Assembly: GCF_005116675.2 (NCBI RefSeq)
Contig: NZ_CP050699.1
Location: 4,645,001-4,709,000 of the forward strand
Length of the DNA stretch: 64,000 bases
DNA from: Desulfosediminicola ganghwensis
Lineage (GTDB): Bacteria; Desulfobacterota; Desulfobulbia; Desulfobulbales; Desulfocapsaceae
Direction of reading: 5' to 3'
Below are positions 30,032 to 35,019 of the stretch, one piece after another. Position numbers and translations under genes: made by a program. Position 1 is the first letter of the stretch, and the number at the start of each line of letters is the position of its first letter. A model generated the notes under the pieces. That model was given only the letters and a program-made list of their open reading frames with translations. It had not been told where the DNA came from and did not search any database.

Positions 30032-32203
30032 TTACGCACACTTACTGTATCCGCAATCGTGGCATGTTTCACAACCTTCCTCAAAAACCAGCGTTCCTGA
30101 GCACTCGGGACAGGTACTGGAAAAACCGCGCTGGGTACCTGCGAGGAAAGATTTCAGCAGCTTACCCAATTGAGCGGGAAGGTCAAGCATATGTCCACTT
30201 GAGCGGTCCAGTTGCTTGATAATCTCGTCCATCGGTACATTGAAGCGAAGGGCGAGCGAAACCAGGCGGCACGTGGTGGTCCACATTGTCGATTTGTCCT
30301 TGAGATCAACCCGGTTGTCAAATGGGAATTTGGCGAAAACCTCCATCGGCTTTTCATTCTCATCAAAACAGACAATTATATAGACCGATTTCTGATCCTG
30401 ATCTTTCACACGGTAGCGCTTGGCATCAAGGGTATCCGGGAGGTTATTTTTCACCAGACCGCTCTCGCCCACTATAACGCTATCATCCCGCTGAGACGCT
30501 TCCTTGGTGTTCAGTACCTGGGAATCACGGGAACCGTCACGATAAACGGTCAATCCTTTGCATCCCAGCTGATAGCCGGTGATATACGAGAGCTTTACCT
30601 CATCGCGACTCGCGCTGTTTGGCAGGTTGATTGTCTTGGAGATTGAACTGTCCACTCCGTTTTGCTGGAGAACACCCTGCATGCCGATATGATCCTCCGG
30701 ACCAATATCCTGGGCAGTGCGAAAAATTTCCTGCCACCTTGCAGGAATCTCCTCATGGCCAATAACAGTCCCGGAATCAGCGACTTTGCTCATCAACTCT
30801 TCAGAATAAAAGCCCTCCTCCCTGGCTATTTTCTCAAAGAGTTTGTTGACCATCATTAAACGATCACCGTCCATGACATGCTTGATCATGACGATGGAGA
30901 AATAGGGCTCACAGCCGGAAGCGCAATCTGCGATCATTGAGACTGTGCCTGTGGGCTGAATAGAAGTCAGTGCAGCATTCCTTCTTGGCGCATAATCATT
31001 AAATTTAGAGTCATAAGCAGGAAATGCTCCCTTGGTTTCGGCAAGTTTCTCGGATTGAGCTGCTGCAGCCTCACGAATGAAGCTCATCACCTCACCTGAA
31101 ACCTTGCGGCCTTCTTCGCTCGCATAGGGAATCTGCAACTGAATCAGCATGTCGTGGAGTCCCATAATTCCCATGCCGATTTTGCGCGTCTTCAGGGTCA
31201 TTTCTTCGATTTCGGGAATCGGAAAACGGTTACAGTCGATCACGTTATCCAAAAATACCGTCGCACTCGCGACAATGGTTCTCAGGCGGTCATAATCAAT
31301 AGCGCCGTTGACCACAAAGTTCGCCAGATTAATCGAACCGAGGTTACAACTCTCATATGGTAACAGCCATTGCTCCCCACACGGGTTCGTTGCTTCGAAC
31401 TCGCCCAGTTGCGGAGTCATGTTGGCCTTATTCGCGGTATCAATAAAGAGAACGCCGGGTTCACCATTATGCCAGGCAAGATCAATTATCTTTTCAAAGA
31501 CTCCCCGGGCATCCAGGCTGCGAACAACCTGCTTGGTTGAAGGCTCGATCAACTCATAATCTGTGCCCTCTTCCACCGCCTTCATGAAGACATCGGTAAT
31601 GGCGACACTGAAGTTGAAGTTGTTGAAACGATTCTGATCCTCTTTAGCAGAGATAAAATCCATAATATCAGGATGATCGACCCGGAGCACACCCATGTTC
31701 GCTCCGCGGCGCTTACCACCCTGCTTAATGGTTTCGGTCGCAGCATCAAAAACCGCCGCAAACGAGAGAGGACCGGAAGCCACCCCCTGGGTTGATCGTA
31801 CAGAAGCATTCTTCGAGCGCAGCCTCGAAAAGGAGTAACCGGTTCCACCACCGGTCTTATGGACCAGAGCACCATTGCGGATAGCTGTGAAAATGCCATC
31901 CATGGAATCTTCCACGGGGAGAACGAAACAGGCGGAAAGTTGCCCGATATCAGTTCCGGCATTCATCAGACAAGGAGAATTAGGAAGAAAATCCATGTGA
32001 TATATCATATGGAAGAAGCCTTCTTTCATCTCTTCGTAAGCAGGACTCCCCTTATCCACCTCCGCGACAGCCTGTGCAACCCTGCGGCATAAAGATTCCC
32101 AGGTTTCAACAGGCTTCCCCTCGCCATCTTTGAGATAATACCGCCGGGCCAGGACAGTTTCTGCGGTACTCGTCAATTCCTGCTTGGTCAAATCAGGTGC
32201 CAT
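30032..32203 (-). CDS. nrdJ: adenosylcobalamin-dependent (class II) ribonucleotide reductase
   Basis: This cytoplasmic enzyme reduces ribonucleotides using adenosylcobalamin as the radical source. From the ATG at 32203 the protein has 723 residues; the open frame continues to 32227, but GAGAGGAGTGT directly precedes the internal ATG. Seen: redox Cys in LSACFVLPVEDS, the catalytic N-x-C-x-E as NPCGEQW with the partner Cys in ESCNLGSINLA, the barrel segment KIGMGIMGLHDML, and a C-terminal Cys-rich zinc motif (CPECSGTLVF, CETCHDCGYSKC). A B12 riboswitch lies on the same strand about 1.1 kb upstream. Confidence 0.95.
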   Translation of the reverse strand: MAPDLTKQELTSTAETVLARRYYLKDGEGKPVETWESLCRRVAQAVAEVDKGSPAYEEMKEGFFHMIYHMDFLPNSPCLMNAGTDIGQLSACFVLPVEDSMDGIFTAIRNGALVHKTGGGTGYSFSRLRSKNASVRSTQGVASGPLSFAAVFDAATETIKQGGKRRGANMGVLRVDHPDIMDFISAKEDQNRFNNFNFSVAITDVFMKAVEEGTDYELIEPSTKQVVRSLDARGVFEKIIDLAWHNGEPGVLFIDTANKANMTPQLGEFEATNPCGEQWLLPYESCNLGSINLANFVVNGAIDYDRLRTIVASATVFLDNVIDCNRFPIPEIEEMTLKTRKIGMGIMGLHDMLIQLQIPYASEEGRKVSGEVMSFIREAAAAQSEKLAETKGAFPAYDSKFNDYAPRRNAALTSIQPTGTVSMIADCASGCEPYFSIVMIKHVMDGDRLMMVNKLFEKIAREEGFYSEELMSKVADSGTVIGHEEIPARWQEIFRTAQDIGPEDHIGMQGVLQQNGVDSSISKTINLPNSASRDEVKLSYITGYQLGCKGLTVYRDGSRDSQVLNTKEASQRDDSVIVGESGLVKNNLPDTLDAKRYRVKDQDQKSVYIIVCFDENEKPMEVFAKFPFDNRVDLKDKSTMWTTTCRLVSLALRFNVPMDEIIKQLDRSSGHMLDLPAQLGKLLKSFLAGTQRGFSSTCPECSGTLVFEEGCETCHDCGYSKCA

Positions 32204-32649
32204 ACACTCCTCTCTTCTCTTACTCATAATGGTTATGAAAGTTCAACTGAATCACGCCCTTGCTTTTTGCACAGAACTGTCTCTTTTCCCCGAAGTAAAC
32301 ATGCGAAATTCAGAACAAAATCGTGTGACGGCAAAACCGACACACACCAGCTTATACCCTACATTTATGGTATGCTCAACAAGAAACTACAATATGTTGT
32401 GGGAATCAATATTGTTACAGCACCTAGCAAATCTCTTGAGTCCGGCAAACAACTGTGACATTGGGCGCTCCGTGCCAGGAGGTCTGTGAGTGCGCTAGAC
32501 AACCAGCCTGATATTTTTTTTTCAAGGTAAAAATTGAACTCAATCCCGTTGCAATCAGAGGTGCTTCACGCACAGTCTTAAAAAATGACTTACATCCGCC
32601 AACAACTGCCTTCTCCAGACCCCAAAAACAGTTTTGCAGCGCATTGGAT

Positions 32650-32740: not shown

Positions 32741-32896
32741 TTATATTCTTCTTTCTTGTCGAACCTTTATGTGACATACTTTTCGTTGCTGTTTATGGAG
32801 AGCTCCATGGGCTTTCCTCATAATTGCTTGAAACGAGTCCCAATCACGGGTTCCCAGCAGTCCTTGTTTCATATTGGCAATCACATTCTTTTCCAT
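32741..32896 (-). CDS. candidate small basic protein, 51 residues
   Basis: The ORF begins at the ATG 32894-32896, six bases after GGAGG on the minus strand, which is the best ribosome binding site in this interval. The product is rich in Lys and Arg (MEKNVIANMKQGLLGTRDWD to KVRQERRI). I recognise no family. The frame extends further upstream without a better start. It could be spurious. Confidence 0.3.
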   Translation of the reverse strand: MEKNVIANMKQGLLGTRDWDSFQAIMRKAHGALHKQQRKVCHIKVRQERRI

Positions 32897-33098
32897 CCTC
32901 ATCCTCCAGGTTTTGGGTGTGTGGGACAAAACCAACGCGATTCGGCCGGCAATTACCTGTATTCGTTGTCCCTGATAGACTGAGGTACGTAGAGCCGTAC
33001 GCTTCAGACAGTGTAATTTTCGATCCACGACCCAACACCTATCTCCCCTGCCTCCAGGACACCAGAGACAACACAGCATTACCGCACTGATACCGGAG

Positions 33099-33142
33099 AA
33101 AACACACTCGGTTGCGTCAAGAAACCGAAAACTGTGTGTTTT
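33099..33142 (-). terminator. hairpin directly after the riboswitch mini-ORF
   Basis: AAAACACAC and CGGTT pair with AACCG and GTGTGTTTT. On the minus strand the hairpin begins one base after the TAG of the 42-codon ORF and ends in TTTTCT, so it is a plausible intrinsic terminator. Confidence 0.6.
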
Positions 33143-33143
33143 G

Positions 33144-33272
33144 CTACAGTTTGGCAGTCATAGCTATGGCATAGTAAAGCACCTGTTCTTTGGGAACCGG
33201 TCGAATATACAGCGGAGACAAACAGGAAATTACTCGTTCTAATTCACAAAAATACTGAATGGACTGGGACAC
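33144..33272 (-). CDS. candidate 42-residue ORF downstream of the B12 riboswitch
   Basis: It reads from GTG (33270-33272) to TAG (33144-33146) on the minus strand. AGGGAG lies eight bases before the GTG. The product has a natural-looking composition (MSQSIQYFCELERVISCLSP, then LYIRPVPKEQVLYYAIAMTA) but matches no family that I know. It starts about 70 bases after the riboswitch and is closed by a hairpin one base after its stop, so it looks like the direct target of the switch or a leader peptide. An overlapping frame from the ATG next to the riboswitch end is an alternative. Confidence 0.4.
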   Translation of the reverse strand: MSQSIQYFCELERVISCLSPLYIRPVPKEQVLYYAIAMTAKL

Positions 33273-33339
33273 GGTTACTCTCCCTTATCGCGAGGTGATG
33301 AGTTACACAAATACACAAGGCCAAATGCCAGTTCGTTTG

Positions 33340-33500
33340 CATGGCAGGTCTTCGGACTCACGGGCATTAAAAGCACCTACTCGTCACCGCTTCCCGGGCA
33401 AACCCAGTGCTCTCTGGTGACTTTCGTTCCCGCTTACCGCTGCGCGACAGTTCCGGACTCTCACCGGATTCCCTTTTCACGTTTTCAGCACAGCTGAATC
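33340..33500 (-). ncRNA. cobalamin (B12) riboswitch
   Basis: Read on the minus strand, this segment contains the hallmark blocks of the AdoCbl riboswitch in order: GGGAATCCGGTGAGAGTCC, GGAACTGTCGCGCAGCGGTA, the CACTGGG...CCCGGGAAG region, GGTGACGAG, and the closing CCGTGAGTCCGAAGACCTG. The B12 box and kissing-loop parts are therefore complete. It points toward a 42-codon ORF and, 1.1 kb further, the B12-dependent nrdJ. These switches usually turn expression off when cobalamin is plentiful. Confidence 0.93.
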
Positions 33501-33981
33501 AGAACCACACAAACTCCAACACTTCGATAAACATACCATATAATGTATTACCAAAAGACTATACCTCTATATCGTGGACTCGTCCAATATATTCTCTCTT
33601 AGAGTACAATTTTTTCAACTTCCCTGCAGCATCAGCCTGTTGGCGTGATATCATGTACATAGTAAACTGATAATTTGCCCAAACGTCCCCTCTTCTTCGC
33701 CTTACCCTGAAGAGCCCAATATAAAAATTAATATGAGGCAACCTGCTAAACAGACTGGTATATTTCCATTGATACAGGTGGTTACGGTTAAAATATTATA
33801 TAATTACCACTAAAAGCTTAGCTTACGATTTGTGAGGGGTTATTCACTCATCTGTCATGCCTCACACTTTATGCCTGTCTCCTCACCGTTTCAGGCTTGG
33901 CTCTATTGGGAACCAGAAAAGATTGTATGATTATTCTAGTGTGAAGCATATACACGCAGAACTATTCCTCGTTATCTCCCG
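33501..33981. other. AT-rich intergenic region
   Basis: This stretch separates the divergent riboswitch transcript and the hydrolase gene and must contain both promoters. No gene is recognised. Confidence 0.4.
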
Positions 33982-34844: not shown

Positions 34845-34868
34845 CGGTCTTTTTCCCCGTACTACCCG

Positions 34869-35019
34869 CAGTTTCAGTTGCCTTTGCAGCAGCAGTTACA
34901 TCCCACGTCCAACTTGCAGTTTCTCTGGCTGTAGCAGTTACATCCAACCTGCAGTTACTTTTGCAGTAGCAGTTCCGTCCAACGTCCAACATCCCACGTC
35001 CAACCTACAGTTACAGTTT
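34869..35019 (+). repeat. period-7 tandem repeat, block 2 (TCCAACG / AGTTACA type)
   Basis: About twenty heptamers in register, such as AGTTACA, TCCCACG, TCCAACT, TGCAGTT, CAGTAGC, TCCAACG and TCCAACA. They form three larger units, each opening with AGTTACA or AGTTCCG. The period holds across the whole block with few breaks. Together with block 1 it fills most of the gap before the hcp promoter. Confidence 0.8.

Follow-up and report, generated by a model that had tools for sequence, protein, structure and literature searches.

A cobalamin riboswitch in Desulfosediminicola ganghwensis as the probable B12 switch of an undescribed family of small proteins

The cobalamin riboswitch found in the analysed DNA of Desulfosediminicola ganghwensis probably serves as the B12 switch for a protein encoded at 32896-32741 on the minus strand, which belongs to an undescribed small-protein family. 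We give this reading, including the mechanism and the trans-acting role proposed below, a probability of about 0.72. The window, i.e., the whole stretch of 64,000 nucleotides that was analysed and in which all positions are counted, contains the following features of interest.

33326-33524, minus strand: full-length cobalamin riboswitch aptamer, RF00174 (Rfam match)
33278-33304, minus strand: conserved block behind the aptamer with a ribosome-binding site (AACTCATCACCTCGCGATAAGGGAGAG; four-species alignment)
33144-33272, minus strand: 42-codon GTG ORF, a lineage-specific frame at the ribosome-binding site of the riboswitch (sequence, alignment)
33099-33142, minus strand: hairpin after the 42-codon ORF, a weak terminator at best (folding, terminator scans)
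32903-32907, minus strand: Shine-Dalgarno site GGAGG of the conserved small ORF (sequence)
32741-32896, minus strand: conserved small ORF of 51 codons (MEKNVIANMKQGLLGTRDWDSFQAIMRKAHGALHKQQRKVCHIKVRQERRI), encoding the DWD protein (congeners, family profile, selection)
32341-32412, minus strand: conserved block upstream of nrdJ (CACAACATATTGTAGTT...CATAAATGTAG; congener comparison)
30032-32227, minus strand: nrdJ, adenosylcobalamin-dependent ribonucleotide reductase (TIGR02504, 713.4 bits, cut-off 399.95)

The riboswitch and the small genes behind it

The riboswitch matched the RF00174 covariance model with 100.7 bits (gathering score 31.5) over model positions 1-189 of 189, and it was the sole Rfam match above a gathering score within the window. 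A preliminary description of this DNA had reported a complete cobalamin riboswitch on the minus strand with no transporter or B12-independent isoenzyme gene directly behind it. Both statements were borne out, nrdJ, which starts at 32227, being adenosylcobalamin-dependent. The 5.65-Mb genome of this strain (G000) carries nine cobalamin riboswitches, this copy among them, and each of the three congeneric genomes searched (G001, G002 and G003, the last from Desulfosediminicola flagellatus IMCC35005) has one at the same place upstream of nrdJ.

Behind the aptamer, the four-species alignment revealed a conserved block with the consensus ACTCrTCACCTCGCG..AAGGnAGAg, which holds a ribosome-binding site and a start codon. 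Its counterpart (query positions 297-324) was 90% identical in G001 and G003, each match having an E value of about 0.09 alone. We propose that the block could act as a translation-initiation switch. A conserved stem around the ribosome-binding site, sought by eye in the congeners, failed in G002, and the segment 33325-33248 folded alone no better than its shuffles (z 0.63, 144 of 200).

The ORF that was conserved in all four congeneric species is the second short one, at 32896-32741, which has its own Shine-Dalgarno site. All of the species but G001 encode this protein with a Shine-Dalgarno site of its own, at a distance of 289-430 nt behind the riboswitch, and the order riboswitch, DWD ORF, nrdJ is common to 4 of the 4 members of the genus searched. 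In G001 a 49-aa frame that begins at the ribosome-binding site behind the aptamer continues straight into ...AREVAFTKQSVISTKDWDVYQAILRK. The segment 32896-32807 matched the 31-position profile of the family with an E value of 3.3e-14, the window sequence itself being 1 of the 38 rows of this profile, and the frame holding the match is open, with a start codon and the GGAGG at 32907-32903 ahead of it. The protein of the window is a divergent member, lacking the near-invariant E5 and also the C29 common among its nearer relatives. AlphaFold placed helices at residues 2-15 and 19-49 with pLDDT 81-84 over residues 11-30, which suggests a helical hairpin, although the pTM was only 0.41. The preliminary description had offered a new small protein under B12 control as one explanation of the locus. 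As a kind of output this is well supported for the DWD ORF; it does not hold for the 42-codon ORF that was named.

The 42-codon ORF (33272-33144) starts with GTG, encodes 42 aa and is preceded by AAGGGAGAG. It does begin at the ribosome-binding site that all four congeners keep behind the aptamer, and a significant hairpin lies 3' of it, as would suit a small protein or leader peptide that functions under B12 control. However, the length of the frame means little, since 8.9% of 5000 mononucleotide shuffles also kept 41 further codons free of stops. When the 42 residues were compared with 58 genomes, 27 matches in 21 of them were obtained at E ≤ 1; the window matched itself at 4.0e-23, and the best match besides had an E value of only 0.0294. 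No match was present at the syntenic site in any of the three congeners. There, the frames at this site are 29 aa (G003), 28 aa (G002) and 49 aa (G001, running into the conserved protein) long, and by eye neither these nor the 42-aa frame align, their residues being unrelated, whereas the riboswitch and the ribosome-binding site are kept in all. The chance-level matches and the lack of a syntenic counterpart led us to reject the 42-codon ORF as a conserved gene, and that it is itself functional, as a protein or as a leader, is in our view very unlikely. Thus, of the 42-codon ORF with a ribosome-binding site that the preliminary description had reported, the presence was confirmed and the conservation was not. 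The search for relatives that it had proposed showed the ORF to be unconserved while the riboswitch stays with another gene downstream, which is the first half of what it had itself named as speaking against its reading. A uORF-type overlap was also absent, since the 42-codon ORF stops at 33144 and the next conserved start is at 32896. A leader peptide read from this frame is possible.

The hairpin at 33142-33099 has a folding energy of -14.5 kcal/mol (z = -2.59), and 5 of 200 shuffles folded at least as well. The hairpin first described is thus present, but AAAACACAC pairs with GTGTGTTTT in the fold, so that the T run is the hairpin's own 3' arm and the Ts lie inside the stem. Our terminator scan, which allowed loops of 3-8 and no bulges, could not see this hairpin and left it unreported, and a looser scan returned only the inner stem with the tail TGTGTTTT, at a score exactly at the set threshold. 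At most, the hairpin may be a weak terminator. It was not seen in the alignment with the congeners. The further suggestion that the locus is the remnant of a lost gene found no support, as the conserved small gene persists further downstream.

nrdJ and the other cobalamin riboswitches of the genome

Since nrdJ is the first large downstream gene on the strand in all four congeners and in G034, the riboswitch might be supposed to control nrdJ through a long leader, with the small ORFs lying in it by coincidence. It would, however, make little sense for B12 to switch off an enzyme that depends on it, and the B12-independent nrdD of the same genome carries its own cobalamin riboswitch, which makes nrdJ an unlikely target. 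A riboswitch placed before the B12-independent isoenzyme is the logic described for related bacteria in the part of PMC545781 available to us. Furthermore, nrdJ has a separate upstream block (32341-32412), 85-89% identical in the three congeners and more weakly conserved before nrdJ in other family members. Because of this block, nrdJ probably has its own promoter; the block looks like NrdR boxes. Finally, in G004, G006, G016 and G017 nrdJ lies far from the riboswitch-DWD unit or on another contig. Regulatory logic and the separate block led us to reject nrdJ as the target of the riboswitch, and control through a long leader is a most improbable explanation.

For Desulfotalea psychrophila, the accessible passages of PMC545781 describe one B12-element, located before cbiK-cbiL, and these passages do not mention a small ORF of the DWD type. 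Behind other riboswitches of the D. ganghwensis genome (L001, L002, L003, L004, L006 and L008), FecCD permease, CbiK, an AIR-synthase-like protein, a ThiC-family protein, a sodium:solute symporter and NrdD are encoded, and a 370-aa frame lies behind the one at L243. The ThiC-family protein possibly takes part in lower-ligand synthesis. D. psychrophila is, we assume, a member of the same order as D. ganghwensis.

Outside the window, at G000:C1:1129941-1130400 (L007 from 1501), two terminator-like hairpins stand behind a cobalamin riboswitch, the second of them strong and separated from the first by a short stretch, and no ORF of at least 60 aa was found nearby. In the counterpart in G003 (L245, G003:C1:5305724-5306098) the second hairpin is, by eye, kept with paired base changes, and its loop pattern occurred in 2 of 58 genomes. 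This element is a candidate B12-controlled small RNA. Within the window, at about 34850-35000 on the minus strand, degenerate short repeats (GACGTGGGATGT, AACTGCTAC, AACTGCAAG) were noticed by eye beyond an alpha/beta-hydrolase gene.

The DWD family: range, coding evidence and linkage to riboswitches

A profile built from four sequences gave 113 matches in 110 of the 257 genomes of the order at E ≤ 0.05. With the 38-row profile, matches at E ≤ 0.001 were obtained in 116 of the 257 genomes, in 75 of the 148 of good quality and in 38 of the 69 genera; the remaining 141 genomes had no match to this profile. Three of the matching genomes carry two copies and the rest one. Desulfopila sp. IMCC35006 and Desulfoprunum benzoelyticum are among the members. 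In a sample of 395 genomes of the phylum, strong matches occurred only in six members of the order; the family was not convincingly found outside it, two other matches being partial with E about 0.005. These two (profile A4; E 0.0046 and 0.0054, covering 12-14 positions) were taken as chance, as was a match from outside the order with E 2.7e-4 in a 216-aa frame (profile A2).

The core of the family reads M...E....K......(K/R)DWD.(F/Y)Q..(M/I)R, or in summary form ExxxxK...KDWDxFQxxMR. M1, W19, D20 and Q23 are invariant in the 38 rows, and E5, D18 and R27 are present in 90% or more. The members are 30 to about 70 aa long: some end right after the core (30 aa), and the longest seen have 64-69 aa. 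No credible family was found for the 29 members of A2 in Pfam or NCBIfam (best E 0.072 and 0.03, respectively, each for one member), and PDB sequences gave only matches at E ≥ 0.028 to urocanate hydratase (the best, at 0.028), actin-like and other proteins. As far as searched, these comparisons show the DWD proteins to be a real, undescribed small-protein family confined to the order.

To judge selection we used 85 distinct 23-codon cores, after removal of L181, truncated at a contig end, and of three duplicate sequences. pS exceeded pN in 3566 of the 3570 pairs, and in pairs with pN < 0.25 the pN/pS ratio was 0.24 in frame compared with 1.16 and 1.32 in the shifted frames, all for cores chosen by a protein profile that itself favours low pN. 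The differences by codon position amounted to 0.384, 0.339 and 0.570. Since this third-position excess and the start and Shine-Dalgarno sites agree with pN/pS, the comparison of sequences shows the DWD ORF to be protein-coding and under purifying selection.

The linkage of the family to cobalamin riboswitches is close. A listed riboswitch was located within 1 kb upstream on the same strand for 66 of 77 matches, at a median distance of 137.5 nt; in these 66 loci, measured by script, the distance ranged from 73 to 430 nt, the window having 430 nt. Direct Rfam searches added a riboswitch for 8 of the 11 remaining loci. Among the weak matches (E up to 0.03 with the four-sequence profile) a riboswitch was present upstream in 15 of 15, and the placement of such sequence-weak matches behind riboswitches supports the family and the linkage together. 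Overall, 89 of 92 checked loci had an upstream cobalamin riboswitch, the check having covered all but 21 of the 113 matches, and we estimate the probability of such linkage by chance at below 1 in 1000 per locus. The three checked loci with no riboswitch above the cut-off were L144 (a sub-threshold 30.4 against 31.5 bits), L179, which starts 71 bases from a contig end, and the match in G013 (E 0.0166, in a 1337-aa frame), which was judged false because G013 has no match to A4. At two loci, L191 (G248:C2) and L231 (G049:C53), the riboswitch and the DWD ORF are followed on the same strand by a second cobalamin riboswitch.

Outside the genus of the window, 74 of 84 loci carry a terminator-like hairpin in the 130 nt that precede the ORF, compared with 20 of 420 shuffles. 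Ninety loci were scanned; L181 was left out of this count and L122-L125 out of the main count, and L185, a duplicate of L130, was dropped from the selection, hairpin, architecture and neighbour counts. Three of the four congeners have a long gap between riboswitch and ORF, and no alignment is seen among the inserted sequences. An 11-pair hairpin lies some 40 nt ahead of the DWD start in G003, and a hairpin precedes the conserved block in G001, while the hairpin scan found none in the riboswitch-DWD gap of G002.

The frames downstream of the DWD ORF were surveyed in 89 loci. In 18 of them a frame with TonB-receptor motifs follows directly, and in 11 of the 18 its first in-frame start codon shares a 4-base stop/start overlap with the DWD ORF. 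TonB receptors were called by motif, and two of the 18 were checked by profiles: both are TonB receptors by Pfam, with B12-receptor models among their best NCBIfam matches, far under the cut-off, so that these frames may be B12 receptors. In 6 of the 89 loci an in-frame fusion joins the DWD segment to a long protein that has a signal-like segment. The partner in L150 is CbiK by profile (PF06180), and the other five resemble CbiK by eye. The remaining 65 loci have neither arrangement. When these were recounted for the first frame that measures 120 aa or more and lies within 400 nt, 8 were too short and 57 could be counted: 15 have such a frame in the same direction as the DWD ORF, 32 have it on the opposite strand and 10 have none. 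Among the 32, 23 were convergent frames of at least 200 aa that lie wholly behind the stop and end 16-298 nt from it, and 7, which overlap the small ORF, are doubtful. In G000-G003 and G034 the next large gene on the strand is nrdJ.

These neighbours also bear on whether the DWD ORF could be a cis leader frame, acting by translational coupling or as a nascent peptide, instead of encoding a trans-acting protein. The position directly before TonB-receptor frames is what such a leader would have, and the overlap resembles that of the uORF before ppe2 in M. tuberculosis, as far as the consulted part of PMC11260477 describes it; the 15 other co-directional frames would fit as well. However, the convergent frames in 23 of the 57 loci and the absence of a frame of this size within 400 nt (120 aa or more) in 10 leave little room for a gene led by the DWD ORF, and the conservation of its residues together with pN/pS suggests that the protein itself has a function. 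We therefore consider a cis leader unlikely and a trans-acting protein the preferable reading.

Proposed regulation and comparison with known systems

We propose that under plentiful B12 the liganded riboswitch would shut the small gene off. In most of the order this would occur through an intrinsic terminator, i.e., by transcription attenuation, and in the genus of the window through a hidden ribosome-binding site, i.e., by control of initiation. When B12 is scarce, a protein with the form of a helical hairpin, 30 to about 70 aa long, would be made and would act in trans in corrinoid acquisition. The trans role is suggested by gene neighbourhood, namely the overlap with TonB receptors, the fusion to exported CbiK and otherwise the lack of a fixed neighbour. 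In the window, sequence would have been inserted between the switch and the gene, and the 42-codon frame would now be read by ribosomes that load at the site of the riboswitch, possibly as a leader keeping ribosomes on the transcript. That the riboswitch still governs the small protein here is the weakest step, because the 430-nt gap contains a hairpin; we consider it somewhat probable. In its widest form, the proposal is that of a small-protein family made only at B12 scarcity, with the riboswitch as its main or only regulator and with B12-using enzymes or the acquisition of corrinoids or cobalt (TonB receptor, exported CbiK) as its targets in trans, and this we put forward tentatively, at a little under even odds.

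Gene callers easily overlook small proteins, and the next large gene is usually taken as the target of a riboswitch. In the present case the riboswitch points to a conserved, undescribed protein family tied to B12 in nearly half of the searched genomes of the order. The family lends itself readily to testing whether small-protein effectors are run by riboswitches, and it may account for some of the "orphan" B12 riboswitches with no apparent target gene. If the proposal is true, a small-protein effector is the means by which a B12 riboswitch sets cell physiology. The titles and abstract openings of the open-access literature on B12 riboswitches and small ORFs contained no report of the family, which is weak evidence.

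The usual outputs of cobalamin riboswitches are genes for transport, biosynthesis or B12-independent isoenzymes. The aptamer of the window is a full-length member of RF00174, but its output here would be a 51-codon gene. Rli55 and AspocR are non-coding RNAs under B12 riboswitches, and the DWD gene resembles them as a short riboswitch-controlled output with no large gene; unlike these RNAs, it shows selection at the protein level. The likeness to exported CbiK (PF06180) lies in the six loci, L150 among them, where the DWD segment is the N-terminus of a long signal-bearing frame, whereas the usual DWD form is free-standing and has no chelatase domain. In M. tuberculosis, the sections of PMC11260477 at hand describe uMetE2 and uPPE2 as uORFs behind B12 riboswitches, each acting in cis on one downstream gene; the predicted bound state partly masks the start region of uPPE2, and there is a tight overlap between the uPPE2 stop and the start that follows. 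The DWD ORFs share with them a short ORF tied to a B12 riboswitch and, at several loci, a stop that overlaps the start of a TonB-receptor frame. However, whereas uPPE2 is partially conserved and acts in cis (PMC11260477, in the same sections), the DWD family extends order-wide, shows purifying selection, in most loci lacks a fixed gene downstream and in some forms a fusion with CbiK.
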